Source of the DNA: Dehalococcoidia bacterium
GTDB lineage: Bacteria > Chloroflexota > Dehalococcoidia > SZUA-161
NCBI GenBank assembly: GCA_014874385.1
Contig: JACWAE010000118.1
Coordinates: forward strand, 1-64,000
Length of the DNA: 64,000 nucleotides
Direction of reading: 5' to 3'
Position numbers and translations under genes: made by a program. Positions 1 through 14,699 of this stretch are shown in pieces (the stretch's first letter is position 1; the number at the start of each line of letters is the position of its first letter). A model generated the notes under the pieces. It made no database searches. It was not told the DNA's origin and worked only from the letters and a program-made list of their open reading frames with translations.

Positions 1-105
1 CTACTATGCTTGGCTGGAGCGGCCTCCCTCTGAGCGAGCGAAGGAGGAAATGCGGCGGGGGGTGGAGATTAGGGCAGCACACAAGCGGACCCGGCAGACC
101 TATGG

Positions 106-180
106 GGCAGAGCGGCTGCTCTTCCCTGGGAGGTCAGCGAGTAGAACACTCGCTGCTGGAGACAGCCATACTGGGCGGGT
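106..180. repeat. Diverged direct repeat, copy A (copy B at 2148-2221)
   Basis: About 70 bases containing CTGCTCTTCCCTGGGAGGTC and GAGTAGA recur at 2148-2221 with scattered substitutions. Copy B covers the last codons and the downstream flank of the small gene ending at 2186. In copy A the matching frame also reads AAALPWEVSE-stop, but it is closed by stops just upstream. Copy A is therefore probably the remnant of the 3' end of a third member of that small gene family. Bases 1-301 hold no other gene I can support. Confidence 0.6.
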
Positions 181-301
181 TTGCGCTTCGCTCTGCGCCG
201 CATCAAACCGGGGATGAGGAACCAGTGGAAGTATGGAACAGTCTGGCCGTTTAGTCGGCTTGTTGCCGTTCCTGGCAGGTTCTTCATCGAGGCTGATGAT
301 G

Positions 302-730
302 TTATCCCACAGCCCCTGATAGAAGAGTCATCGATTCGGTTTCCCTGGCCAGGGCTACCAAGTTCAATCCGTGCTTAAATCCACAGTGTACATCGGCAGC
401 GCACACCATGAAGTCCTCTTTCGCGTGGCCCTCGGTGAGATAAGGTTCTGCATACGTAAGTCGCTCTTGATATGCCTGGGTCTTCTCATCCAATCCTACT
501 CTGTTGACGATCTTGGTAGGGGCGACTTGTGGTCCGCCGAAATGCGCCGATTCTTCGTTTGAAATCGCAGGCGCATAGCTTGGGGTCGGTGTCTCAGTCA
601 GCACGCCCTTATTCTTAAGGCTCTGTGCGAACTGGTCGAAGTCTTTAACCGAGTCCCGCTGCAAGAATTTCTCCAGCGGTAGCCTGGGGATTACGTTGAC
701 TATGCCCATCACGATATCCCAGCCATCCAT
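302..730 (-). CDS. Hypothetical protein, 142 aa, mobile-element gene
   Basis: I do not recognise the family. I start it at the ATG for MDGWDIVMGI because a strong AGGAGG lies 7 nt upstream; the track's longer form starts at an ATG with no such site. The product is soluble, has no membrane segment, and carries a late CAADVHC cysteine/histidine cluster followed by GFKHG, which might bind metal. Its coding strand contains a short stretch (around 533-551) nearly identical to the CCGAAATGCGCCG that begins the iteron blocks at 1268 and 1583, so part of its DNA is shared with the element's repeat region. It runs divergently from the small gene at 989, with repeat boxes in between. Confidence 0.6.
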   Translation of the reverse strand: MDGWDIVMGIVNVIPRLPLEKFLQRDSVKDFDQFAQSLKNKGVLTETPTPSYAPAISNEESAHFGGPQVAPTKIVNRVGLDEKTQAYQERLTYAEPYLTEGHAKEDFMVCAADVHCGFKHGLNLVALARETESMTLLSGAVG

Positions 731-784
731 AACTGTGCCTCCTAAGCTTAATTTTCCTGCTTTTTTCGTCATTGTCAAGAAAGC

Positions 785-859
785 GAAAAGTCACTGACAA
801 ATAGAACTGAAAAGTCACTGACAAATACGTTCGGTACGACTTTTAAAAGTCAGTGACTC
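785..859. repeat. Triple GTCACTGAC box in divergent intergenic region
   Basis: A 19-bp sequence, GAAAAGTCACTGACAAATA, occurs twice in direct orientation (785-803 and 809-827, a 24-bp period). A third copy of the 9-bp core lies inverted at 849-857 (GTCAGTGAC). The array sits between divergent genes at 730 (minus) and 989 (plus), where an operator or an additional replication-protein site would be expected. Just before the gene at 989, GACTCATA is also repeated twice at a 10-bp period (961-978). Confidence 0.6.
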
Positions 860-988
860 AAGGAAAGTCGGGCGTCACGTTTACGCTAATAAAAAAGTTT
901 CGAACCTGACAACGCCAAAAAGTGCGTTAATCTAAAAATGTAAGTATGACGGTCATAGATGACTCATAACGACTCATAGGGGGTCAAC

Positions 989-1264
989 ATGGCGAAATGG
1001 CTAATTCAGGGCACGGATAAGACAGAGGAAGGGACTCAAAAAGGCTGGCAGCGACTAAATGCGACCAGGAATAGAGAGAAGCTATTCAAGGCGAAGCCCA
1101 TAATCTTTGTTGATGACCGTGGAACGACTCATGCCGACGTCGATAACCCAATGGATGCAAGAAAGGCCGGCCTGCTGGTTAAGGGGAAGGAAAAGGAAGT
1201 GCAGGGCCGGTCCTCAGCTCGATTTTCCTTCAAGTTTCTGCGGTTGCCAAGCGGCCTGCTGTAA
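989..1264 (+). CDS. Small hypothetical protein, MAKW family copy 1
   Basis: 91-aa product of unknown family. It is clearly paralogous to the gene at 1896: both begin MAKW-(L/I)-IQ, then share G(W/Y)-x-R-(L/I)-NA, RNR, FVDD-x-G, HAD and ARKAGLL before diverging at the C terminus. The mix of Trp/Tyr, acidic and basic residues suggests a compact alpha/beta domain of roughly 65 residues with a variable tail. The start follows AGGGGG with suitable spacing. The iteron block begins right after its stop. Because both copies flank the iteron array, a role in replication, partition or copy control is an inference only. Confidence 0.65.
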   Translation: MAKWLIQGTDKTEEGTQKGWQRLNATRNREKLFKAKPIIFVDDRGTTHADVDNPMDARKAGLLVKGKEKEVQGRSSARFSFKFLRLPSGLL

Positions 1265-1267
1265 TCC

Positions 1268-1837
1268 GCCGAAATGCGCCGTTCAAAAGCCTCTAAATCC
1301 GTTCAAATGACAAAGGGATAGACGGACACACCGACGGAAGGAATTACGTTCAAATCACTGGAGAAATGGAGATGGACGGACAGAAAAATGATAATACGTT
1401 CAAACGTCTAGCAGAAATTCACTAAAAAATGTCACGGGGGTCCAGCGGAGATCGTGTAATACCATCCTCCCTATGTTCCTCCCTATCCTCCCTATGTTCC
1501 TCCCTATCCTCCCTATATTCCTCCCTATCCTCCCTGTTATCCTCTGTGTAGGAGGTATAGTTGTTCCATGAACCTGTGGTGCGCCGAAATGCGCCGTTCA
1601 AATGCGTCTAAATCCGTTCAAGTGACAAAGGGATAGATGGACAGACCGACTGAAGGAATTACGTTCAAATCCCCAGAGAAATTGAGGTCGTCGGACGGAC
1701 TGACGAGAATACGTTCAAATATCGGGAAAATTCATTGAAAAAACCACTGAATCGTGACGATATCGTGGGGTACTATTCTCCCTATGAAGCTATGGCGTAC
1801 CAAAATCAGCGTTTAAGTGCATCCAAATCCGTTCAAA
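1268..1837. repeat. Iteron array, ten CGTTCAAA sites in three blocks
   Basis: CGTTCAAA (one G-ending and one TTTAAG variant) starts at 1280, 1300, 1347 and 1397, then 1595, 1615, 1662 and 1712, then 1810 and 1830. The spacing 20/47/50 is identical in blocks 1 and 2, and the 20-bp step repeats in truncated block 3. Blocks 1 and 2 are diverged direct repeats of roughly 165 bp, both opening with CGCCGAAATGCGCCGTTCAAA-like sequence. Repeated short sites with fixed phasing next to an element-borne primase-helicase resemble an iteron origin, a partition site or a repressor array. I infer an origin-like function and cannot tell these apart. No gene is visible between 1265 and 1895. Confidence 0.75.
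1466..1540. repeat. 21-bp tandem repeat, 3.5 units
   Basis: The unit is CCTCCCTATGTTCCTCCCTAT: a 12-mer and a 9-mer that share the core CCTCCCTAT. It is repeated three and a half times, giving seven pyrimidine-rich cores on the plus strand. The array lies exactly between iteron blocks 1 and 2. A strand-biased pyrimidine/purine tract like this could ease melting, form unusual DNA, or bind a protein. Confidence 0.8.
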
Positions 1838-1895
1838 ATTGACAAGAGAAAAAGTGTAGTAGCATAGAATTAATCGAGGGCGTCACGAGGTCGTC

Positions 1896-2186
1896 ATGGC
1901 GAAATGGATAATTCAGGACACAGATAAGGAAGAGGAATGTAGCGAGGAAGGCTACAAGCGTATCAATGCGCTCAGGAATAGGTTCTTTAAGAATAGAACA
2001 TTGGTCTTTGTTGACGACAACGGTGTCGCCCACGCGGACATCAATAGCATCACTGCAGCCAGGAAAGCCGGCCTGCTGCCGAAGAAAAAGGATGTTCATG
2101 ATGGCAAGGGTGCCCCAGGACGAGTAGGCGCTATCCGGTCTGGCCAGGGCAGCGCTGCTGCTCTTCCCTGGGAGGTCAACGAGTAG
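1896..2186 (+). CDS. Small hypothetical protein, MAKW family copy 2
   Basis: 96-aa paralogue of the gene at 989, sharing MAKWIIQ, TDK, RINALRNR, FVDDNG, HAD and ARKAGLLPKKK. Its C terminus extends through a Gly/Ala-rich linker to AAALPWEVNE, the sequence preserved as a fragment at copy A near base 140. The ATG is preceded by a Shine-Dalgarno-poor but purine-containing stretch (CACGAGGTCGTC). The third, truncated iteron block (1810-1837) lies 59 nt upstream, so the gene may be controlled by whatever binds the iterons. Function unknown. Confidence 0.65.
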   Translation: MAKWIIQDTDKEEECSEEGYKRINALRNRFFKNRTLVFVDDNGVAHADINSITAARKAGLLPKKKDVHDGKGAPGRVGAIRSGQGSAAALPWEVNE

Positions 2187-2329
2187 AGGATTTGCTCCTG
2201 GAGAAAAGCATACTGAGCAGGTTCCCGCCTGCCTGTACGCTGCGCCCGGGCCAGAACCTAGCAGGTGGACCAGCTCGGATCACCGGAGCACCGCCAGGGC
2301 CAAGACCATGGCCAAGCGGCAGACACCAA

Positions 2330-2356
2330 AGGGCCAGAGCTTTGAGCTCTGGCCCT
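2330..2356. terminator. Strong 11-bp hairpin in gap 2187-2509
   Basis: AGGGCCAGAGC, TTTGA, GCTCTGGCCCT forms a perfect 11-bp stem with a 5-nt loop. It lies downstream of the plus-strand gene ending at 2186 and downstream of the minus-strand gene ending at 2510, so it may stop transcription from either side. There is no long U-run on either strand. Nothing else in the 2187-2509 gap is supported. Confidence 0.5.
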
Positions 2357-2509
2357 ACTTGTCAACCCCAATTATTATGTTAAAAGTGATATCGCCGCGA
2401 CCCAAAAATTCGTAGCTACCTGCAGCACCGGCAGCAGCTCACGGGTGAGGCTAAACTCGCAGGCATAGATATTGAGACAAGCCCTGGCCTACATCACCTT
2501 TGAGCGATG

Positions 2510-3058
2510 TCAAGTTTTCCTAGCACCAGGGTAACGCTCTATACTGCCTTCCATCTGCCGTTGCAGCCGCTGCGTTCTTTTCCTAATACACACTTCATAC
2601 GCCTTGTCACCGAGCCACCCTAACTGATCGGGATCCAAACGGTTAAGCCAAGCCTCCACATCGCCAGAATTTGACGGAGCTCGAACATCTTGAATCACAA
2701 ACCTGGGCACCACTTGAATCAGTCGCCTTCTACTCTCCACCTCAGCGTCTAACATGGCTAACTCGTTTTTCTTAGCCGAGAACTCTCGATCTAGCCCCTG
2801 GGCTAATTGGTTTTTCGCAACCTCGATAGAATGGGCTAATGTGTTATTATAGCTTTGCTTTTGCCGAATTTCTTCGTTCAAACGCTCGATTTCTTCGTTC
2901 AAGCTGGTCTTCTGCCGCTCCAAAGCCCCGAAGTCAATACCCAGGTCCTTCCTAACCTTCGCAATATCACGAAGACTAACCTTAAGGTTAGTGGCTATCG
3001 TCCGGGTCGAGTCACCACGGGCCAGTGCCTCCCTAATTTGGTCAATCTTTGATACCAT
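2510..3058 (-). CDS. HTH plus coiled-coil DNA-binding protein
   Basis: 182 aa. Residues 1-40 form a helix-turn-helix (IREALARGDSTRTIATNLKV then SLRDIAKVRKDLG) of the resolvase/Trp-repressor-like type. Residues about 45-115 are a long charged coiled coil rich in Glu, Gln and Lys. The basic C terminus (RKRTQRLQRQ) may also bind nucleic acid. The ATG has GGAGGT four bases upstream. An array of four GATACC-like hexamers covers both the ribosome site and the start codon, so the protein probably represses itself. The architecture (short HTH, dimerising coiled coil) resembles regulators or partition adaptors of mobile elements. I cannot assign a named family. Confidence 0.65.
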   Translation of the reverse strand: MVSKIDQIREALARGDSTRTIATNLKVSLRDIAKVRKDLGIDFGALERQKTSLNEEIERLNEEIRQKQSYNNTLAHSIEVAKNQLAQGLDREFSAKKNELAMLDAEVESRRRLIQVVPRFVIQDVRAPSNSGDVEAWLNRLDPDQLGWLGDKAYEVCIRKRTQRLQRQMEGSIERYPGARKT

Positions 3059-3084
3059 TGATACCTCCTGATACCGTTGATATC
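3051..3084. promoter_or_regulatory. Four-hexamer GATACC operator over start of HTH gene
   Basis: GATACC at 3051, 3060 and 3070 and GATATC at 3079 are spaced 9, 10 and 9 bases, close to one helical turn. They form two copies of GATACCRTTGATAYC. The array spans the start codon and Shine-Dalgarno of the HTH gene, a position suited to autorepression at transcription and translation. Confidence 0.6.
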
Positions 3085-3348
3085 ATTATTCTATGAGATT
3101 ATTTTGACGTGTCAAGCGAACGCATTTCTCGGCGCATTTCCGCGCGTCACAGCAGGCCAAAAAGCTGCCTCAGAACCTCCCTATGGGGAGAAAGTGCTCT
3201 TTGTCAGTTCCGCGGACCCGGAAGACGATGAGGTTGAGCGGGAGTTAGAGAACCTCGAGATATGTCACTCTTTTGACATGTGAAGCTGTCACTTATTTGA
3301 CTTATGCGGGGTTTGTCTCTTTTTTGCTATCATTTTGTGGGGGCGAAT
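3085..3348. other. Gap without a supported gene
   Basis: The gap lies between the HTH gene and the minus-strand ORF ending at 3349. It contains two related boxes, TGTCACTCTTTTGACATG (from 3263) and TGTCACTTATTTGACTTATG (from 3287), on the plus strand. The first is partly palindromic (TGTCA...TGACA). A 68-codon open frame at 3077-3283 has no ribosome site and is not called. Confidence 0.4.
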
Positions 3349-3594
3349 TCAAATCTTACCATCGAATTCGTTCCGTCGTACGAGCAAAGGCTCACCAGCT
3401 TGCCCAGCAGCTATAACATCGGCGATGGCCGGCCAATCGCCTAGCACCTCTCCACTCCTGGGCCGAATATCTATCAGGACCCGGCTACCCTGCGACGTGG
3501 TCTTCTCAGCGGAAGCCACTACCAAGCACTGGAGCCGGTCAGAGTGAGGATGTGTAAACGTCGTATACTTCGCATATCCCCAGGAACCTCTTCC
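3349..3594 (-). CDS. Start-less ORF overlapping gene end; possible frameshift C terminus
   Basis: This frame is missing from the ORF track because it has no early start codon. It is open from just after a TGA (3595-3597) to a TGA at 3349-3351 and reads protein-like throughout: KYTTFTHPHSDRLQC, then VLIDIRPRSGEVLGDWP and EPLLVRRNEFDGKI. It overlaps the last 56 bases of the 388-aa gene in another frame. The only usual start is a TTG at 3525 (58 aa) with no ribosome site. Two readings fit: a small gene with a non-standard start coupled to the upstream gene, or the true C terminus of the 388-aa protein reached by a frameshift (mutational, programmed, or an assembly error). Confidence 0.4.
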   Translation of the reverse strand, partial: GRGSWGYAKYTTFTHPHSDRLQCLVVASAEKTTSQGSRVLIDIRPRSGEVLGDWPAIADVIAAGQAGEPLLVRRNEFDGKI

Positions 3595-4705
3595 TCAAAG
3601 CTACTAGAACCAACTTCTGCTTCATTGGCACCAGATGTCCCTCAGCCTGCCTGTAGGCCTCCTGCGCTGCCTTGAATGCCTCCCATTCCTTGGCTTCCTT
3701 GATAAGGGCTGTATGGACATCCTGAAGGCGGGGCCGCTCGGCGGCATTGCGAGCCCAAGCCAATATGCCCATATCACCAAACAGGGTCACCCCATCATCC
3801 TTCCGACTTGACGGAAACCCGTATGTGGGAAGCCTTCCTGCGAGGGCGTATTCGAATACTCTCTGTGCAAAGCAGAAGTTCAGCGTTCCAATCTGAACGC
3901 TTCCGTAGGAGTGCTTAAGTCCAGTTCTTTCTTCAGCCTCGACCCTAATCCTTTGGGCCAATGAATAAGTGAAACGGTGGAGATCAGCCAGGCTTTTCCT
4001 CAAGTCAAATAACCTAGCATCCCACTGACTATCCTCTGCCTTCAGGTGAGTCGATAGATAGGGGTAGAGCTGGAAATTCACCGCGCTCTCGCCGGGGTGG
4101 TAAGGCAGGTCTGCGTATCTGAACTGATAATTGCGTTTTAGAAACATGATTGCTTCTAGGCCATCCCTATCTCTGGGAATCTGTTCTGGGCTCGCTGGGT
4201 CAGTGAATCCTGGAAGTTCCCAGATCGCGGGCAAGCGCAGATGATCACCCCTTACCATGAAATCTGCCAGGGCAGCCAGGTCTTTCCAGTGCTCTCGCAC
4301 TTCGGGCAAGCGGCCGTCCTCATTTGTTTGAAGGGGCTCGCGCATTTTCTGCTTGTGTGGAGTCTCTTGGTATGGCTTCTCTTCGATTGGGGCCTCTCTC
4401 CGCGCTTCTTGCTCCGCTTCTTTAATTTGTTCATGCCTAGCCTCATCGACAGTTGGACAGTGTGAAAGATAAGCCAAGTATGGCTCAAGTTCACCTTCAT
4501 CGTATAGCTTCTTGATTTTATAAACGGAACCCTTGCCGCAAACAGGTGCTCCCTTATCTGGTCTCGTAGCGTAGAGCGAATAAAGAGACTCAAGAGCTTT
4601 ACCAGATAGCACGTTTACCACTTGACGAACCACTGACTCATCTATGTGGAGGCCCAGTCCTTGCAGCAACCTTTTCGCATCTTCGGAATTATTCAACTTG
4701 TCCAT
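3539..4705 (-). CDS. Hypothetical protein, 388 aa, element-borne
   Basis: No family recognised. The N-terminal 90 residues are helical and include GKGSVYKIKKLYDEGEL, which could be a winged-helix or HTH unit. Residues about 95-140 are a low-complexity Glu/Gln/Arg linker. The rest is a globular domain rich in aromatic residues. There are no membrane segments. The start ATG has no clear Shine-Dalgarno, and four GGACAA direct repeats (on the coding strand) surround it. Its end overlaps the protein-like frame at 3349-3594, so the product may be longer than shown. It runs divergently from the AbrB-like gene at 4832. Confidence 0.55.
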   Translation of the reverse strand: MDKLNNSEDAKRLLQGLGLHIDESVVRQVVNVLSGKALESLYSLYATRPDKGAPVCGKGSVYKIKKLYDEGELEPYLAYLSHCPTVDEARHEQIKEAEQEARREAPIEEKPYQETPHKQKMREPLQTNEDGRLPEVREHWKDLAALADFMVRGDHLRLPAIWELPGFTDPASPEQIPRDRDGLEAIMFLKRNYQFRYADLPYHPGESAVNFQLYPYLSTHLKAEDSQWDARLFDLRKSLADLHRFTYSLAQRIRVEAEERTGLKHSYGSVQIGTLNFCFAQRVFEYALAGRLPTYGFPSSRKDDGVTLFGDMGILAWARNAAERPRLQDVHTALIKEAKEWEAFKAAQEAYRQAEGHLVPMKQKLVLVALRKRFLGICEVYDVYTSSL

Positions 4706-4748
4706 ATGGTCAATTTATTTGTCCGTATTTGTCCACTGGCGCTTGTCC
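4698..4748 (-). promoter_or_regulatory. GGACAA direct-repeat array at gene start
   Basis: On the minus strand GGACAA occurs four times (plus-strand TTGTCC at 4698, 4719, 4729 and 4743). The two central copies are ten bases apart as GGACAAATACGGACAAAT, and the last lies just inside the coding region of the 388-aa gene. The gene lacks a ribosome site, so the array is more likely a protein-binding operator than translation signals. Confidence 0.5.
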
Positions 4749-4831
4749 GCATTCATGTGCTTCCATGAAAGCATACAGAAATATTATATGCCTGCGTTAA
4801 TGATAAAGCACAGGAACGATGACGGTCAAGG

Positions 4832-5041
4832 ATGCCTACGTTAAATGAACGGGTTTTGCACAAACTTGGGCCGCGGGGCAGCGTGGTAGTAGCCATCCCA
4901 CAGGACTGGCTACGCTATTACGGGCTGAAACCAGGTGACAGGGTTCAAGTGATCGCCAACGGTGAACTCACCATTCGCCCACTGAGGGGACAAGACAGTG
5001 GCACAACAGATAAGAAAGCGAACCAGCAAACCACAGATTAA
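4832..5041 (+). CDS. AbrB/SpoVT-type DNA-binding protein
   Basis: 69 aa. Residues 5-50 match the swapped-hairpin AbrB fold: a short strand, GSVVVAIPQDWLRYYGLKPGD, then RVQVIANGELTIRP, ending in a disordered polar tail. Such proteins dimerise and bind DNA, acting as antitoxins or transition-state regulators. No toxin gene sits next to it. Here it heads a run of overlapping genes ending in the primase-helicase, so it is more likely the regulator of the element's replication operon. The last 44 bases overlap the GTG-started ORF at 4998. Confidence 0.75.
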   Translation: MPTLNERVLHKLGPRGSVVVAIPQDWLRYYGLKPGDRVQVIANGELTIRPLRGQDSGTTDKKANQQTTD

Positions 5042-5156
5042 GGTCATTGTGGACATTCAGCCTGCGCCAGCTTCACCGGCTCAAAAACAGGCTTGGCGCA
5101 AGTTCTGGCGGCGCCTTATTGCGGAAGCGAAGCAAAGCGAGGCTAAAAATGGGTGA
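4998..5156 (+). CDS. 52-aa basic protein, overlaps both neighbours
   Basis: This ORF is too short for the track. It starts at GTG with GAGGGG eight bases upstream, inside the AbrB-like gene, and ends TGA at 5156, overlapping the ATG of the next gene (ATGGGTGA). The product is a basic N terminus (QQIRKRTSKPQIK), a strand-like KVIVDIQP, and an amphipathic helix AQKQAWRKFWRRLIAEAKQS. I recall similar AWR-x-FW-containing peptides in other mobile elements but cannot name a function. The chain of overlaps implies translational coupling to the primase operon. Confidence 0.6.
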   Translation: MAQQIRKRTSKPQIKVIVDIQPAPASPAQKQAWRKFWRRLIAEAKQSEAKNG

Positions 5157-5328
5157 GGCTTATGCTACTGCTTTCAAGTTGCTAAACCTGGGGTTTAGCG
5201 TCATTCCGTCTGGCGGCGGCATGGAGAGCAACGTAGGCGAAGTTTCTATCGAAAGGCCGGGACCAACAGGAAACGAAGGCGCGACAGGGCAAGGATACGG
5301 AGCGAATGGAAGCGAAGCAATCAACTAA
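5149..5328 (+). CDS. 59-aa fragment resembling primase N terminus
   Basis: I start it at the ATG of MGEAYATAF because it overlaps the previous stop. Its first 20 residues (AYATAFKLLNLGFSVIPSGGG) match the start of the primase-polymerase domain encoded immediately downstream (PYTLAYKMLTLGFHVAPSGGG). The remainder is low-complexity Gly/Glu sequence without domain character. It looks like a partial tandem duplication of the primase 5' end that has degenerated, or a small decoy or regulatory peptide. It overlaps the primase start by 23 bases. Confidence 0.5.
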   Translation: MGEAYATAFKLLNLGFSVIPSGGGMESNVGEVSIERPGPTGNEGATGQGYGANGSEAIN

Positions 5329-7684
5329 TGCACGCGGCAACCCACTGGACAACATAGCGTCTGACCCTGATATCCCCAGCGATCCCTATACCCTTGCTTA
5401 CAAGATGCTCACTCTCGGTTTTCACGTAGCCCCTAGCGGCGGCGGCTCCACAGGAAAGGAGCCAATCGCAGGCTGGAAAATCTATCAGCCCAAGAATAAT
5501 CCCCCCACTGAGGCGCAACTTGAACGATGGGAACAGGAATTACACCCAAAAGTGTGGGGTGCAGTCACTGGGATTGACTTCCTAGATATAGAGGTTGACA
5601 CTCCCGAATGGGCCAATTTCATGCTTGCCTCTGGACTCAAACCACATTTGCAGTCCCCCCACGGCGGAGGTCATTTCCTTTGCACAAAGCCCCCTTGGAC
5701 AGTCAAGACGAACGCTCCCATACCAGGGCTGACCAGGGGGATTGATATACGCGGTGATCGCGGTTTCATGAACTTTGCCGGGATAGTTGATGGCCATCCC
5801 TACAGGCTGATCCGGTGGCCGACTCCTGAGAATCTTATCCCCTTCAATTCGTTACCAGCTATCATCCAGAAGGCGCTAGCGCCTGAATCTGCTACTCAGC
5901 CTCAGCCTGACAAAGACAAAGCAGGCACCTTCCCATCTTTAACTGCTGAGGATTGCCATAAGTGCATAGAAATGCTCAGAACTTTACCCTGTGTCAAGTA
6001 TTGTGATGATAATAGGGCCATGCTTTCCGAATCCCTTTGGAAAGACGTGGTAATTGACCAGAATATCACCTTTGGGCCAGAGGGAGATAACGAGGCTCAT
6101 AGACTGTCAACAGGCTACGTGGGAAAAGATAATCGGGGCTATTCCGAGCAAGATACCGCTAAGAAGATCAAGTACGCTCGGGAAGCAAGGGAAACGAAGC
6201 ACTTGGGGCCAACGCTATGCGCAACTATCCGCACGGCTGGCTTTGACTGTCCGGCAACGTGCATAGCTCAGACAGAGAAACTCGAAGTCCACACACCGGC
6301 AACGCTGGCAATCAAGCTAGCCTTAGCACATGAGCGATTACCACTTAATGACGTGGGGAACGCCAAGCGGTTATTCAGGCTATTTGGTAACAGAATCCGG
6401 TTTGTCTTAGATATGGACAAGTGGATTGTCTGGACTGGAAAATTCTGGCAATTCGACCACGGAGAGCAGCTAGGACGCATGGCCAAAAGGGTAGTTTCCA
6501 GCATCTATGCTGAGGCAGCGAACGCAGATGAGGATATGGCCAATAAATTAGGGGCCTGGGCCAGGCAGTCCGGCTTCGACGCTCGGATCAAGGGGATGAT
6601 TAACCAGGCTAAAACCCTCGACGGCATTACCGTCTTGCCGGACGAACTAGATAGTAATCCTTGGCTGCTGAACGTCAAGAATGGAACCGTGAATCTGATA
6701 ACCGGAGAGCTGCTACCACACAGCCCAGATGATCTGATAACCCGGATCATTTCTATAGATTACAAGTGTGATGCTGAAAGTCAGCTATGGGAAGATACGC
6801 TGAGGCAGATTTGCTCAAACGATGACGATCTTATCTTGTTTATGCAGAGAGGGCTAGGCTGTTCCGCGACTGGCTCCAATAAAGATATGGCCTTCTTCCT
6901 ACCGCAAGGTGCGGGTTTTAATGGGAAGTCAACACTGTTGGGTGTAATCCATGACGTGTTAGGGCCATACGCGCACGAAGCAGACCCAAGGGTGTTCATG
7001 GTTTCAAGGAATGACCGCACAGGCCCAAATGAAGATATTGCAGATTTATACCGCAAACGTTTTGTATTGAGTGCTGAGATCAACACTCAAATGCGTCTGA
7101 GCGTCAGCCTGGTAAAACGCATGACCGGCGGCGAACAGTTGAGATACGAGCGCAAATACGAGCACGGATTCAACTTCAAACCGGACTTCAAGCTCTGGCT
7201 GATGAGCAACCATGAGCCAACTATTGCGGATTCGACTAATTCAATTTGGTGTAGAGTTAAGAAGATTCCCTTCAGGCACTTCTTTGGTCCCGAAGAGCGG
7301 AACCCTAGTCTACGGCAGCAGTTAGTCACGGAACATGGCGAAGCAATCCTAGCTTGGCTCGTACATGGTGCGATGGAGTGGTATGAGTTTGGATTATCTG
7401 AGCCGATGGTAGTCAAGACTGCAACAGAGGAATACCGAAGGTCCCAGGACGTGCTACAGGAGTTCTTGGCCGAGAAGTGCAACATAGAAGAAAATGCCAC
7501 TGTGTTAGGCCATGACCTTTATCGTTGCTATCAAAACTGGTGTGCTGCGACTGGAGAAAAGGACGTGCTGGGCAAGATCAACTTTGGCAAGCTACTAAGG
7601 GAAAAGGGATTTTGTACATTCGCAGGAACAGGCAACGCTCAATTTTGGAAGGGGATAGAATTATCAGAGGGGGTAATTAATTAA
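5306..7684 (+). CDS. Primase-polymerase/SF3 helicase replication protein
   Basis: 792 aa. Residues about 25-200 are a bifunctional primase-polymerase domain: AYKMLTLGFHVAPSGGG...KEPIAGW, GAVTGIDFLDIEVD (the acidic metal-binding motif, written DIEVD rather than the usual D-x-D), SPHGGGHF, and GIDIRGDRGFMNFAG. Residues about 380-760 are a P4/D5-type superfamily 3 helicase. The Walker A motif is GAGFNGKST at 535-543 with Lys541; RFVLSAEIN follows as Walker B, then LWLMSNHEP and NSIWCRVKKIPF with the sensor and arginine-finger region. The protein would unwind and prime an origin, presumably the iteron region. It shows that the element can start its own replication. Confidence 0.88.
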   Translation: MEAKQSTNARGNPLDNIASDPDIPSDPYTLAYKMLTLGFHVAPSGGGSTGKEPIAGWKIYQPKNNPPTEAQLERWEQELHPKVWGAVTGIDFLDIEVDTPEWANFMLASGLKPHLQSPHGGGHFLCTKPPWTVKTNAPIPGLTRGIDIRGDRGFMNFAGIVDGHPYRLIRWPTPENLIPFNSLPAIIQKALAPESATQPQPDKDKAGTFPSLTAEDCHKCIEMLRTLPCVKYCDDNRAMLSESLWKDVVIDQNITFGPEGDNEAHRLSTGYVGKDNRGYSEQDTAKKIKYAREARETKHLGPTLCATIRTAGFDCPATCIAQTEKLEVHTPATLAIKLALAHERLPLNDVGNAKRLFRLFGNRIRFVLDMDKWIVWTGKFWQFDHGEQLGRMAKRVVSSIYAEAANADEDMANKLGAWARQSGFDARIKGMINQAKTLDGITVLPDELDSNPWLLNVKNGTVNLITGELLPHSPDDLITRIISIDYKCDAESQLWEDTLRQICSNDDDLILFMQRGLGCSATGSNKDMAFFLPQGAGFNGKSTLLGVIHDVLGPYAHEADPRVFMVSRNDRTGPNEDIADLYRKRFVLSAEINTQMRLSVSLVKRMTGGEQLRYERKYEHGFNFKPDFKLWLMSNHEPTIADSTNSIWCRVKKIPFRHFFGPEERNPSLRQQLVTEHGEAILAWLVHGAMEWYEFGLSEPMVVKTATEEYRRSQDVLQEFLAEKCNIEENATVLGHDLYRCYQNWCAATGEKDVLGKINFGKLLREKGFCTFAGTGNAQFWKGIELSEGVIN

Positions 7685-7999
7685 AAGTTAATTCTTGTAA
7701 GGCTTCTTCTATAAAGTGTTATATACGCGCGTATATAAAGATTTTCCGAACAAGCCTTGAGGGTTTTAACTTTTAACGGTTTTTTGACAAGCTCTTTGGG
7801 CTTATATGGATAATATATGGAGCACGATGGACGGTTTTAGAACTTTTGGGAGTAGGTTAAACAAAATGGTGCAAAAGAGCCAGAGATCTCTCCCCCGGCT
7901 CTGTGTGCGAGGGGGCGGGTATGCTCTCCCTACGCCGACCCCTTATTTCGCCAAGTGGTACAAATGCACCACCTCATTATGTTAAGGGTAAGGGGAACA
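7685..7999. other. Non-coding gap with 20-bp perfect palindrome
   Basis: No gene is visible. TTATATACGCGCGTATATAA at 7719-7738 is a perfect palindrome of alternating purine/pyrimidine character. It could be a dimer-binding operator, an extruding cruciform, or the resolution site of the element. Further on, AGAGCC (7876) pairs with GGCTCT (7897) around the palindrome AGAGATCTCT, a weak terminator-like structure after the replication gene. Confidence 0.6.
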
Positions 8000-8206
8000 A
8001 TGGCTGAAAAAGAGGTGAAACACCTTGAAAAATGCCCGTCCTGTGGCACCGAGGGCCCGGTAGAGCACTGGACGAAGGTTGACCGGGTGCTTGAAAGCAT
8101 CGAGTGCTTCCCATGCGGGAAAATTTATGGGAGAATTATGGGCTGTGCGCACACAGGAAGCTGGCACTATCTCAGTATAACTGAAGCTCATGCGTTGATA
8201 GCTTAG
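8000..8206 (+). CDS. Small zinc-ribbon protein, 68 aa
   Basis: The start is the ATG after AAGGGGAACA rather than the upstream GTG of the track. Two CxxC knuckles, KCPSCG and ECFPCGK, are about 30 residues apart and suggest one structural zinc. A conserved-looking tail (HTGSWHYLSITEAHALI) follows. It probably binds nucleic acid or a partner protein. It is one of five very small cysteine-rich proteins in the last 4 kb of the element. Confidence 0.6.
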   Translation: MAEKEVKHLEKCPSCGTEGPVEHWTKVDRVLESIECFPCGKIYGRIMGCAHTGSWHYLSITEAHALIA

Positions 8207-8345
8207 CCCGGGGCTACAGATAGCGAAATGGGGATGAAAATGGGATAAAGGACGGCGGGTAAGAACCTACTTGTCTGTGTGGCAATTCCCTAAAGAGCGC
8301 TGAACAGAGTTAATCCGGTGTCCGCACTGCGGGGGAACGGTAGCG

Positions 8346-8573
8346 GTGAATGGTTTAGGACGGAAAGCGTTTGATATGCCAGTCACTAAAGTTTGTGACG
8401 CTCTACGGCTTCACCGTAGCGTAGTGACGGCGGCTAATGAGCTGGGGTGTAGCCGCGCATACATTTACAAAGTCCTGAAAGCCGATGGGCTAACACCGGC
8501 GGAAGTAATAAAGGTATTAGCAACAAAAGATAACAGTTTGTTGCATAAGGGGGCGGCAAGTGACGGACGGTAA
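8346..8573 (+). CDS. HTH protein with possible upstream zinc knuckle
   Basis: 75 aa from the GTG. A helix-turn-helix is clear: VCDALRLHRSVVTAANELGCSRAYIYKVLKADGL, resembling Fis or phage/transposase-type HTHs. Directly upstream and in frame, without an intervening stop back to 8303, the codons read ELIRCPHCGGTVAV, a zinc-knuckle sequence that fits the protein but has no ATG, GTG or TTG. Either a rare start codon (ATC at 8313) is used, or the start was lost and a shortened protein is made. The gene overlaps the recombinase start by 14 bases, so the two are coupled and it may regulate integration or excision. Confidence 0.6.
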   Translation: MNGLGRKAFDMPVTKVCDALRLHRSVVTAANELGCSRAYIYKVLKADGLTPAEVIKVLATKDNSLLHKGAASDGR

Positions 8574-9237
8574 GAATGAGACGGCCTTGACGGTAAGGGC
8601 GGATAATGCCGCTTTACGCAACAAAACTTCTCAAGTGTTCGCAATTCAACGGGCGGAAGCCGGAGCCGACGACTATGTACCGCACGTCAGCGCGGGCCAG
8701 GTCAAGCTAATGGCAGTGGTGGCCGGACAGAATAAGCGGCATGGCGAGCGAAACGCCTTGCTAATCAAGTTTTTGTTTGACAGTTGCCTGAGAGTAAGTG
8801 AGGCGCTAGGGGTAAGGCCCGTTGACTTGCAGCGGACGCCGGACGGCTGGACGGTGCGAGTGTTGGGTAAGGGCAGCAAGCCGGGCGTGGTAGCAATATC
8901 AGCCAGCATAGCGGCTGAGTTGCAATCCTACTGCTACCGGGCCAGGATAGGCGAAAGCGAGCGCATATTCCCGCTGAGTCGGTCACAGGCTTTCAGGGTA
9001 GTGACCGAGGCTTTTGACAAGGCGGGCATACCGAGGCCGTCAAAGGAACGTGACCACGTGGGCGGCGTCCATATCCTTCGGCATAGCGGGGCTATTGAGC
9101 GCCTACGGCTTACCGGCAATCCGAGAGCTACCCAAAGCCAGTTAAGGCACAAATCAGCCTTAATGACCCTGCGCTACTTAAAGACATTAAGCGCGGATGA
9201 ATCATTGAAAATTCAACAAGGCGTTGAACTATGGTGA
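8560..9237 (+). CDS. Tyrosine recombinase/integrase
   Basis: 225 aa from a GTG with AAGGGGGCGG upstream. The catalytic domain fills most of the protein. Arg lies in FLFDSCLRVSEALGV, Lys in the beta hairpin VLGKGSKPG, HxxR in HILRHSGAIERLRL, the second His in LRHKSALMT, and the nucleophilic Tyr in RYLKTL. The N-terminal arm-binding and SAM-like region is very short, as in XerH-like or resolution-type recombinases. It could resolve element dimers or integrate the element. A second, unrelated serine recombinase follows 230 bases later. Confidence 0.85.
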   Translation: MTDGKNETALTVRADNAALRNKTSQVFAIQRAEAGADDYVPHVSAGQVKLMAVVAGQNKRHGERNALLIKFLFDSCLRVSEALGVRPVDLQRTPDGWTVRVLGKGSKPGVVAISASIAAELQSYCYRARIGESERIFPLSRSQAFRVVTEAFDKAGIPRPSKERDHVGGVHILRHSGAIERLRLTGNPRATQSQLRHKSALMTLRYLKTLSADESLKIQQGVELW

Positions 9238-9273
9238 GACTAATAATAGTCCTAAAAAACAGGGCAAAGAGTG

Positions 9274-9302
9274 TTGACATTCTACAGATATGTCCTTATA
9301 AT
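9274..9302 (+). promoter_or_regulatory. Consensus sigma-70 promoter, TTGACA-17-TATAAT
   Basis: TTGACA (9274-9279), a 17-bp spacer and TATAAT (9297-9302) match the full vegetative consensus. Transcription should begin near 9308-9310, and the ATG of the next gene is at 9310. The transcript would be leaderless or nearly so. It drives the rubredoxin-like gene and the serine recombinase. Confidence 0.8.
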
Positions 9303-9309
9303 AACAGGC

Positions 9310-9468
9310 ATGAATAGTATTGAACTTCCGAAATTAACCTGTACCAGGTGCGGACATACGTGGATACCACGCACATCACACCCTAAGAATTGCCCTAAGT
9401 GTGACAGTCCTTATTGGAACAAGCCAAAGGTAAAGCAATCAGGGCCAAAAAGGAAGGTGAAGCCATGA
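9310..9468 (+). CDS. Rubredoxin-like zinc-ribbon protein, 52 aa
   Basis: Start at ATG 9310 (MNSIELPKLTC). The two knuckles CTRCGHTWIPR and CPKCDSPYWNKP are typical of the tiny rubredoxin-like zinc ribbons that precede recombinases or toxin genes in many elements. A basic Lys-rich tail follows. Its stop overlaps the ATG of the serine recombinase as ATGA, so the two are translationally coupled. It probably binds DNA or the recombinase as an accessory factor; that role is inferred from position. Confidence 0.7.
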   Translation: MNSIELPKLTCTRCGHTWIPRTSHPKNCPKCDSPYWNKPKVKQSGPKRKVKP

Positions 9469-11180
9469 AAGCAGGTGTCTATTGCCGGGTGTCTACAGAC
9501 AATCAGGAGCGCGAAGGCACGAGCCTACACACGCAGCTAGAGGCTTGCCAGAAGCATTGCCAGACTAAAGGTTATCAGATAGCCTATCAATTCAGTGAGG
9601 CATATTCAGGCTTGAGCCTGGAACGGCCTAAGCTGAACGAAGTGCGCAGCCTGATAAGAGACAAACAAATAGCCGTTTTGGTGGTTTACTGCTTGGACAG
9701 ACTGAGCCGCGATCCGGTGCATGGTGTTATTCTCACTGAGGAACTTGAAAAGTACAAAGTTGCACTTGAAGCAGTAACCGAGAATGTCGATAGCTCCGAT
9801 TTGGGCAAGCTGATAAGCTATATCCGGGGCTATGCCAGCAAGCTAGAGGCTGAGAAGATACGGGAGCGCTGCACACGCGGTAAGCGGGCCAGGGCAAGGG
9901 AAGGCCGCATACCTGGCGGCGGCGGTACAACTATTTACGGCTATACCTATAAAAAGGTGTCAGAAAAGAACGGCGGGCGGCGGGTCATAAACGAAACTGA
10001 GGCGTCCTGGGTGCGCCAGATGTATCAATGGCTAGTCAATGAGGGCTTGTCTACCAATGCGATCACCTATCGTCTGAGGGCTTTGGACGCGCCTACCAAG
10101 TTCGGTAAAATGTGGAATAGGCACAGCGTACAGGCGATACTGATTAACCCGGCTTACACTGGCAAGACCTACACTTTCACCACCGTTAGGGGCCGTGGGC
10201 GACTCACCCGGCCAGAATCAGAGTGGATTGAGATTGAGGGCGTTACACCGGCCATAATCAGCCAAGAGGTATTTGACGCGGCACGGAAACAGCTACAGGT
10301 AAACCGGACTAAGACAGTACCCGCTACCAAGCATGAATACCTCTTGCGCGGGCATTTACGCTGCCGCCAGTGTGGACGTGCCTACGTGGGCTGCATAGCC
10401 CGCAGGAGCCTGCAGAACGGCAAGCAATATGTCAAGCTATATTATCGCTGTATGGGCAAGTCGAAGGTCGACGTGCCGCTTGAGCGGTGCTGTAACAAGG
10501 GCTGGTCCGCTAAGAGGCTTGAGGGCATGGTATGGGCCGAACTTGAACGCTATTTGAGTGACCGTGACCTTATAAAAAATGAGCTTGAAAAAGAGCGCCA
10601 GGACGCGGGCCAGTTAGGGGCATTTGAGGCTGAACTAGAGCGCGTGGAGCGCCAGCTTAAGGCAGCTGATGGTGAGCAGCGCCAGCTTTTACAGTGGGCC
10701 TTAAAGGACTTCCCGGCTAACCTAGTAGAGGCAGAAAATAGGCGTCTGAACAAGGCGAAAGAAACACTGAAGGCTCAAAAGACCGAGCTAGAGGCACAGC
10801 TTAAGGCCAGCCAGGACGCCGTTATCAAGGTGCCGAACCTTGAACGCTTTATTGAGGATATGCAGAAGCGATTGCCGGAACTGGACTTTGAGGGCAAGCG
10901 CCTTGCCTTAGATATGCTCGGTATCATGGTATACCTTGACGGTGAGAATGTGGAAGTCACCGGCATAATTGATCCTGAAAAACAGGTGTTACGCTGCCCA
11001 AGCAATATCAGTTGCACGGCTCTGGCCCTCGGCAAAAACATAGATGACGATTGTCCCCATAAGCAGGAGCTTTGCGACATGCTGGCCGAGGACTCGGGCT
11101 CGTCATCCCGCATCTGGGGGAGGCTCGACCCTAACGTAGCCCGCAGGGCGCTGGGCATAGAGCCAGACCTTAAGGAGTGA
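9465..11180 (+). CDS. Large serine recombinase (integrase)
   Basis: 571 aa. I start at ATG 9465, which has AGGAAGG upstream and overlaps the preceding stop; the track start is 17 codons too early. The catalytic domain is at the N terminus (KAGVYCRVSTDNQ with nucleophile Ser10, then DRLSRDP). The recombinase domain spans about 150-300 (GYTYKKV, INPAYTGKTYTF). A zinc ribbon follows (LRCRQCGRAYVGC, YYRCMGKS, CCNKGWSAKRLE) and then a long coiled coil (about 370-470). This is the phiC31-like class that moves large elements between attachment sites. Its place near the right end fits an integrated element whose attR lies close by, probably between 11181 and 11660. Confidence 0.92.
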   Translation: MKAGVYCRVSTDNQEREGTSLHTQLEACQKHCQTKGYQIAYQFSEAYSGLSLERPKLNEVRSLIRDKQIAVLVVYCLDRLSRDPVHGVILTEELEKYKVALEAVTENVDSSDLGKLISYIRGYASKLEAEKIRERCTRGKRARAREGRIPGGGGTTIYGYTYKKVSEKNGGRRVINETEASWVRQMYQWLVNEGLSTNAITYRLRALDAPTKFGKMWNRHSVQAILINPAYTGKTYTFTTVRGRGRLTRPESEWIEIEGVTPAIISQEVFDAARKQLQVNRTKTVPATKHEYLLRGHLRCRQCGRAYVGCIARRSLQNGKQYVKLYYRCMGKSKVDVPLERCCNKGWSAKRLEGMVWAELERYLSDRDLIKNELEKERQDAGQLGAFEAELERVERQLKAADGEQRQLLQWALKDFPANLVEAENRRLNKAKETLKAQKTELEAQLKASQDAVIKVPNLERFIEDMQKRLPELDFEGKRLALDMLGIMVYLDGENVEVTGIIDPEKQVLRCPSNISCTALALGKNIDDDCPHKQELCDMLAEDSGSSSRIWGRLDPNVARRALGIEPDLKE

Positions 11181-12665: not shown

Positions 12666-12725
12666 AGCCCTCTCACTGTGAGCCTATCACATACTATAGT
12701 CCCAGTCAACGGCTTCCGAATCTTC

Positions 12726-12754
12726 TTGACACCCCTGTCCTCTCAATATATGAT
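12726..12754 (+). promoter_or_regulatory. Sigma-70 promoter, TTGACA-17-TATGAT
   Basis: TTGACA at 12726, a 17-bp spacer and TATGAT at 12749 point to the gene at 12815, with a leader of about 55 nt. The inserted gene therefore carries its own promoter within the hyp cluster. Confidence 0.65.
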
Positions 12755-12814
12755 GCTACCATTCATAAAAAGAGTTCATTAGCAATGTGTAGAGTTGACG
12801 GTGGTGTTTAAATA

Positions 12815-13540
12815 ATGACTTTCAAATCAATGACAAAATTTGGCTCTCTGTTTGCCCCAGAAGGAGCAATTTATGTCGCTAGGGGCAAAGAAGGCGTTGT
12901 TCAGCTTTTTGCCGACATTTGTAAAAGCGCGTTGAAGTTGAAAGGTGAGAAAATAACGCCAGCAATTGAAAAAGAAATCCTAGAAGTAGTTCAAAAAAAA
13001 TTAGATGAAATGGATAGTGAAATTAATATAGAAGGAATACCAGACAAATTGATGCCCCTATTTGAAATCAAGAAAAAATCTAAAGTCTTAGGATACTGCA
13101 AGAACCTCGAATTATCAGAAAGCGAATTGTTCCTTCTGATGCATAATTGTTATCAAATAGGCTTCAAGCATAGAGCTAAGTTCACAGAGTTCATTCCTAC
13201 TCACCTAAGAATTCTAGACTCTGACATTTCTGCTATGAAGAACAGAAATTCTCGTCAATTTTTAAAAAAGGTACGTGGGGTTTTCCAGGAGCGGAAACGA
13301 ATCCACATTCATGTACTCGAGAAGGATAATGAATGGCATTGTTTCTATTACACTTACAGCGATATAGAATCTGGTAATAAAAGTCACTGGAACTATGGTT
13401 CCCATCTTCATTACGTGAGCTACCTATGGCCTAATCTAAGGAAACGTCAAGTCTGGGAATCATTTGACCAGCGTACTGTTGAAATCCAAGGGAGTGCTCA
13501 CATTAGACTGCGACCATTCGTTTTTGATTCGAACAGGTAA
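12815..13540 (+). CDS. AT-rich unknown gene inserted in hyp operon
   Basis: 241 aa, family not recognised. The N-terminal half is helical and charged. The C-terminal half (from RKRIHIHVLEKDNEWHCFYY through HWNYGSHLHYVSYLWP) is rich in His, Trp and Tyr and looks like a beta domain with possible metal or nucleic-acid sites. No signal peptide or membrane segment is visible. Its base composition is visibly more AT-rich than the flanking hyp genes, it lies on the opposite strand, and it has its own promoter and a hairpin at its end. It appears to be a recent horizontal insertion. Confidence 0.65.
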   Translation: MTFKSMTKFGSLFAPEGAIYVARGKEGVVQLFADICKSALKLKGEKITPAIEKEILEVVQKKLDEMDSEINIEGIPDKLMPLFEIKKKSKVLGYCKNLELSESELFLLMHNCYQIGFKHRAKFTEFIPTHLRILDSDISAMKNRNSRQFLKKVRGVFQERKRIHIHVLEKDNEWHCFYYTYSDIESGNKSHWNYGSHLHYVSYLWPNLRKRQVWESFDQRTVEIQGSAHIRLRPFVFDSNR

Positions 13541-13578
13541 ATCATTAGTTAGCGGATGAATTTTCAATACCCACATAC

Positions 13579-13596
13579 AGGAGAATTAGTTCTCCT
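13579..13596. terminator. Short hairpin between convergent genes
   Basis: AGGAGAA-TTAG-TTCTCCT is a perfect 7-bp stem. It lies between the stop of the inserted gene (13540) and the stop of hypD (13608). It probably serves as a bidirectional terminator or processing site, although no U-run follows. Confidence 0.45.
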
Positions 13597-13607
13597 AGCT
13601 GAATTAG

Positions 13608-14699
13608 TTACCGGCCAACCTCACCGTACTGAAAATAGGCGGCGCAGGTGCCCTCGGAGGAGACCATACACGGCCCTATGGGGTGCTCAGGGTTGCACAC
13701 CTTGCGGAATAGCTTGCAGTCCAGAGGAGTCTTTACGGCACGCAGGACGTCTCCGCAGATGCATCCCCTGGGCTCAATCGGCTTGCCAGGCCTGATTTCG
13801 AAATTGTGCTCTGCGTCGTAGCTCTGATATTCCTTCCTCAACCTCAGTCCGCTGCCCGGGACAACGCCTATACCCCGCCAGTTCCCCTCACATACCTCGA
13901 AGACCTTATCCATAAGCTCCAGGGCTATTTTGTTGCCTTCGGGTTTCACGCCGCGGCGATAGGCTATCTCCACCCTGGGCTGCCCGATTTCAATCTGAGC
14001 CACCAGCATATCAACACACTGCAAGATATCCAGAGGCTCGAAGCCTGATACGACGCAGGCGATTCCGTAGTCGCGTGGTATGAACTCGTAGGGCCGCGAA
14101 CCGATGATGGCGCTGACGTGTCCGGGGCAGATGAGGCCGTCAATCTTCACCTCACCGGAATCAAGCAGTGCTTTTACTACAGGGGGACACAGCTTATGCA
14201 ACGATAGTACATAGTAATTGTCTATGCCCTGCTGCTGCGCCTGGAGCACCGAGGCGGCGACAGTAGGAGCAGTCGTCTCAAAGCCGACGCCGATGAATAT
14301 GACCGGTCTCGAGAGGTTGCTCCGAGCAATCTCGATGGCATCAAGCGTGGAGTAGACTATCCTGATATCCTTACCCTCTGCTTTGGCCTGCTGCAGGCTG
14401 GAACGGCTTGCAGGCACCTTCATCATATCGCCAAAAGTGGTGATGATAACACCGGGCAATTCAGCTAAGGCGATAGCTTTATCCAAATCAGCGTTGGCGG
14501 TTACGCAGACAGGGCAACCCGGCCCCGAAAGCATCGTGATATTAGGCGGCAAAAGCTGTCTGAGGCCGTGCCTGGCGATGCTGACGGTATGACTGCCGCA
14601 GAACTCCATAAGCCGTGCCGGTTTGGTTGACCTCTGTCGAATCCTGGCTATCAGGCTCTTACCTAATTCAGCATCGCGGAATTCGTTAATATATTTCAT
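13608..14699 (-). CDS. hypD: Hydrogenase maturation factor HypD
   Basis: 363 aa from the ATG of MKYINEFRD, which matches the usual family start; the track adds nine codons from a GTG. HypD is the iron-sulfur scaffold that works with HypC to assemble Fe(CN)2CO. Visible signatures are MEFCGSHTVSIARHGL, LSGPGCPVCVT (the thiol motif for iron coordination), GFETTAPT, and the C-terminal CICGDVLR...CKLFRKVCNPEHPIGPC cysteines that hold the [4Fe-4S] cluster. It is followed in the transcript by the interrupted junction to hypE. Confidence 0.95.
   Translation of the reverse strand: MKYINEFRDAELGKSLIARIRQRSTKPARLMEFCGSHTVSIARHGLRQLLPPNITMLSGPGCPVCVTANADLDKAIALAELPGVIITTFGDMMKVPASRSSLQQAKAEGKDIRIVYSTLDAIEIARSNLSRPVIFIGVGFETTAPTVAASVLQAQQQGIDNYYVLSLHKLCPPVVKALLDSGEVKIDGLICPGHVSAIIGSRPYEFIPRDYGIACVVSGFEPLDILQCVDMLVAQIEIGQPRVEIAYRRGVKPEGNKIALELMDKVFEVCEGNWRGIGVVPGSGLRLRKEYQSYDAEHNFEIRPGKPIEPRGCICGDVLRAVKTPLDCKLFRKVCNPEHPIGPCMVSSEGTCAAYFQYGEVGR

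Follow-up and report, generated by a model that had tools for sequence, protein, structure and literature searches.

Ten near-identical octamers lying between two small orphan genes of a Dehalococcoidia mobile element raise the question of whether they mark a replication origin, a partition site or a transcriptional operator, or are only the residue of local duplications. All positions refer to the window, that is, the whole 64,000-nt stretch that was analysed. The sites fall between 1280 and 1837, all on the plus strand, and comprise eight exact copies of CGTTCAAA (1280, 1300, 1347, 1397, 1595, 1662, 1712 and 1830), one CGTTCAAG variant (1615) and one CGTTTAAG variant (1810), with successive spacings of 20/47/50, 198, 20/47/50, 98 and 20 bp, just as the sequence-only reading had described. 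The array is real and non-random. Exact CGTTCAAA occurs 10 times in the 64-kb window versus 1.7 expected, a count reached in 0 of 100 shuffles, and the two exact matches outside the array (2875 and 11981) are both within coding sequence. No octamer exceeded four copies when the array region was shuffled, and in the first repeat unit alone CGTTCAAA occurs four times, compared with a maximum of two copies for any octamer in 3000 shuffles. A second CGTTCAAA array was not found elsewhere in the same genome, the only further match being block B with its changed second site, and no copy was present in the related genomes, phages or plasmids searched. Viral contigs with three CGTTCAAA within ~110 bp yielded 19 matches, most of them tandem or inverted repeats of an unrelated kind; a primase, HTH or MAKW relative was present in none of the stretches examined.

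The array is built from three plus-strand blocks. Block A (1259-1404; octamers at 1280 to 1397, with GCCGAAATGCGCCG preceding) and its duplicate, block B (1574-1719; octamers at 1595 to 1712, the second being the CGTTCAAG variant), are copies of one 146-bp unit placed 315 bp apart, which align without gaps at 85% identity, with similarity reaching 217 nt at 78%. Block C (1769-1845; octamers at 1810, the CGTTTAAG variant, and 1830) is a truncated, shorter and more diverged copy (72% identity to 1554-1628). A pyrimidine-rich 21-bp tandem repeat of ~3.4 copies lies between blocks A and B (1464-1544, plus strand). It had been proposed that the sequence between the sites has diverged while their spacing was held by selection on site phasing, with simple duplication named as the finding that would undo this view, and it is duplication that accounts for the spacing: because blocks A and B arose by a gap-free duplication, their equal spacing was inherited. 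Nor has the intervening sequence diverged throughout, as the spacer between sites 2 and 3 differs at 3 of 39 positions and is nearly as well kept as the sites, most change being concentrated between sites 3 and 4 (13 of 42). Over the whole unit, mismatches affect 1/32 site positions versus 21/114 of the remaining sequence, a borderline contrast (p=0.047), and no helical phase common to the spacings was found at 10, 10.5 or 11 bp. The repeated 20/47/50 spacing is no evidence of selected phasing, and the regularity comes mostly from plain duplication.

Block duplication does not, however, explain the four exact octamers with different flanks inside unit A, which are a stronger sign of function than the spacing. 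Because these four octamers share one unit and have unrelated flanks, it is plausible that the array sites are functional DNA-binding sites. An RNA element was considered and rejected: the array RNA has no fold superior to those of shuffled sequences, so that DNA is the likely target, and the single weak Rfam match lies far from the array. Separately, CCGCCGAAATGCGCCG of blocks A and B recurs in the coding part of a neighbouring 158-aa gene (525-549; 92% over 25 nt for block B).

The two genes that border the array, MAKW1 (91 aa; 989-1264, plus strand) upstream and MAKW2 (96 aa; 1896-2186, plus strand) directly downstream, are small paralogous orphans, and the array fills the gap between them; a third copy, MAKW3 on contig C29, lacks an array. 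The core of MAKW1 and MAKW2 has diverged with dN 0.30 and dS 1.17 (dN/dS ~0.26), and the MAKW genes are under purifying selection. Set against this dS, the 15% divergence of blocks A and B indicates that the gene split is far older and that the array was enlarged separately. Apart from the three copies in their own genome, no MAKW relatives were found in viral contigs, GTDB contigs, phages, plasmids or class-level genomes. The predicted MAKW fold is a confident model over residues 1-60, for which no structural match was found.

Further upstream lies a divergent 158-aa orphan gene (302-778), the C29 copy of which is broken by stops. Three GTCA(C/G)TGAC palindromes (785-860) sit between this gene and MAKW1 and are possibly a separate operator. 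A repeat of ~100 bp is present at 105-201 and 2116-2243 and on contigs C29 and C113, with folding only slightly better than shuffles. Window positions 1-118 are likely the remnant of an IS3-family orfB, read by eye from the sequence, and the low end of C29 similarly reads as IS3-like orfA; the contigs may break at a copy of this IS.

These surroundings bear on the least functional interpretation, in which the array is a relic, left by local duplications nested within one another in a region that is decaying and flanked by IS sequences, and the octamers are alike through recent descent, with no present function. The tandem arrangement of blocks A, B and C, further repeated fragments in the vicinity, the stop-broken gene copy on C29, the IS3-like sequences at the C29 end and at 1-118, and site-versus-spacer conservation that reaches only the borderline value given above are all consistent with decay. 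Such a relic is nonetheless unlikely, given that block duplication leaves the four exact octamers with unrelated flanks in one unit unaccounted for, that selection still acts on the MAKW genes, and that the module is found again at the promoter of an HTH gene.

This second occurrence of the module links the array to transcription. The last octamer pair lies directly upstream of a candidate MAKW2 promoter (1839-1870, plus strand), recognised by sequence match as TTGACA (1839-1844) and TAGAAT (1865-1870) with a 20-nt spacer that is longer than optimal; the site at 1830 adjoins the TTGACA, and all octamers point toward MAKW2. Downstream, on the minus strand, a gene at 2510-3058 encodes a 182-aa protein with an HTH and a long coiled coil, which is a candidate binder of the array. 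Its model has helices at 4-39 and 43-116, its N-terminus gave HTH-type PDB matches that were all weak, and no relatives were found in the phages or viral contigs searched. GGTATCA-type repeats surround the start of this gene (3049-3087). Its promoter region (3088-3178, minus strand) contains TTGACA-16-TAGAAT, a strong sigma-70 match (11/12), preceded by a module, CTGTGACGCGCGGAAATGCGCCG...GCGTTCGCTTGACA, that is homologous to block A. Local alignment of this promoter scored 51 against block A (shuffle maximum 35), 41 against block B (31) and 40 against block C (35), the last spanning both hexamers, and in each case 0 of 1000 shuffles did as well. CGTTC followed within 3-5 nt by TGACA is common to blocks A, B and C and the HTH promoter. 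The homology speaks for an operator module, situated upstream of a promoter, of which several copies arose in front of MAKW2. The MAKW1 promoter resembles the HTH promoter at p=0.048 only, and the MAKW1 and MAKW3 promoters are alike.

The best explanation, to which a probability of roughly 45% is assigned, is that the array is a stacked promoter-upstream operator of MAKW2. The ancestral binding module would have consisted of a pair of directly repeated CGTTCAAA sites, spaced 20 bp apart and lying just 5′ of the -35 TTGACA before MAKW2, and two duplications of its upstream part would have produced ten sites over ~560 bp. A regulator encoded by the element, for which the HTH/coiled-coil protein is the likeliest candidate, would bind cooperatively to the octamers, controlling MAKW2 and, by way of the related module, its own promoter. 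The model takes its footing from what was observed: the sites, their non-randomness, the duplications, a homologous module at the HTH promoter and the purifying selection on the MAKW genes. From these we infer that the MAKW2 promoter is active, which protein binds, that it does so cooperatively, and whether it activates or represses. Repeats in one orientation just 5′ of a -35 box, which recur at the promoter of the candidate regulator, are also what is seen in direct-repeat operators of mobile-element regulators, although the ten sites, a product of block duplication, are unusually numerous for such operators and the regulator here is a candidate only. Several observations count against the model. 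The MAKW1 and MAKW3 promoters have no array and only degenerate matches, the HTH promoter holds a single degenerate site, the MAKW2 promoter has a non-canonical 20-nt spacer and was not listed by the promoter scan, blocks A and B have TGACA with no fitting -10, and the number of sites, ten in 560 bp, is high for a simple operator.

Direct repeats together with a promoter and a DNA-binding protein are an arrangement known from ParR/TubR/KfrA-like systems. The HTH/coiled-coil protein could be imagined to assemble on the direct repeats as a plasmid-type centromere complex and at the same time to repress the promoter close by, and the layout around the array does recall parC/TubR-type plasmid centromeres. 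Yet the spacing is irregular, an integrated element needs partition only after excision, and no ParA, ParM or TubZ-type NTPase was present among the genes examined at 1-11180 or on C29, all of which makes a partition site very improbable; the suggestion of a partition centre in the sequence-only reading accordingly finds no NTPase partner among these genes.

The mobile element itself encodes the HTH/coiled-coil protein, an AbrB/MazE-like protein, a P4-family primase-helicase, a tyrosine recombinase and a large serine recombinase. Judged against a same-genus genome, the integrated element has its right end, with the attachment-site core, at 11002-11016 and its left junction around 399-413 of contig C111; as the window starts at a contig end, the element is incomplete in the window. 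This core falls within the 3′ end of the frame for the serine recombinase, the last ~55 codons of which apparently come from the interrupted host gene, and a same-genus genome (G109) carries the empty site. A separate segment at 12673-13618, with a 241-aa ORF beside hypE/hypD, is absent at the matching place in G109.

The presence of the primase-helicase (5306-7684, plus strand; Prim-Pol, D5_N, DUF5906 and a weak Pox_D5 C-terminus) raises the possibility that the array is instead a replication cis-region like crr/ori1 of phage P4 (NC_001609), in which case the C-terminal domain of the enzyme would bind the octamers and the enzyme would start replication after excision. The protein matches TIGR01613, "phage/plasmid primase, P4 family", with 256.6 bits versus a cut-off of 108.7, and has weak BLASTP similarity to P4 alpha (20% identity over 371 columns). 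The likeness of the array to P4 crr is striking: both have ten octamer iterons and include two direct-repeat blocks whose internal offsets agree, on an element that encodes a P4-family primase-helicase. The two 120-bp repeats of P4 crr, with five octamers each, are 82% identical and differ at 1/40 site and 21/80 spacer positions. The P4 octamer, TGTTCACC, shares GTTCA with CGTTCAAA, and an unsupervised octamer scan placed P4 crr, P4 ori1 and the array all above shuffles. In contrast, the P4 octamers occur in both orientations and lie directly 3′ of the alpha gene, whereas the array is one-way, is located ~3.5 kb upstream of the primase gene and overlaps in block C a probable promoter that shows homology to the HTH promoter. 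The array also has no DnaA box and no marked AT-rich region, only local dips. The primase match to PF03288 (Pox_D5, residues 714-766) is just below the cut-off (20.2 versus 21.4 bits), and its C-terminus does not match the origin-binding domain PDB 1KA8, which P4 alpha does.

A similar comparison can be drawn with phage-inducible chromosomal islands (PICIs), which like this element are mobile, carry a primase and have short repeated sites. In the PICI origin (pri-rep-ori), two iteron sets flank an AT-rich region immediately 3′ of rep (PMC6092414). This arrangement is not seen for the array, and no octamer array was found 3′ of the window primase.

Arrays in that position do exist among relatives. 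Within a comparison set of 20 related P4-type primase loci from the same class, octamer arrays adjoin the primase 3′ end in three, L047 (1893-2012), L050 (8661-8843) and L058 (432-615). The octamers of these arrays are CCCGTCACC, GTGACACTT and CCCTTCACC. Two further loci, L043 and L045, show an excess of a TCACC-like motif just 3′ of the primase, where windows were counted from the end of the conserved primase and the motif, [GT]TCAC[CA], was chosen after the arrays had been seen. A GGTTTTC stretch is flanked by two inverted sets in L047 and L058, which recalls P4 crr or PICI origins, while L050 is mostly in one orientation with one inverted site. The window array has neither the primase-3′ position nor the mixed orientation of the best of these arrays, and CGTTCAAA differs from their TCACC-like core. 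The expectation that CGTTCAAA arrays would lie beside primases in related elements was not borne out, as none occurs at any of the 20 primases. The proposal of an origin consequently keeps the P4-family primase and the resemblance to P4 crr as indirect support, but is weakened because the arrays of relatives are of another kind and sit 3′ of the primase, and because block C coincides with a probable promoter. An origin is therefore possible, though less likely than the operator. It is more doubtful still that a P4-crr-like region moved away from the primase, fused with a promoter and acquired a new one-way CGTTCAAA, so that the sites would serve both replication control and transcription of orphan genes.

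If the array is an operator, as preferred here, or an origin, a mobile element from a little-studied lineage would have a defined binding array, the octamer of which was not seen in related elements. The P4-like or PICI-like arrays at the 3′ ends of several related primases make origin-binding specificity directly testable in this primase family, and these by-product arrays may be more useful than the CGTTCAAA array itself.
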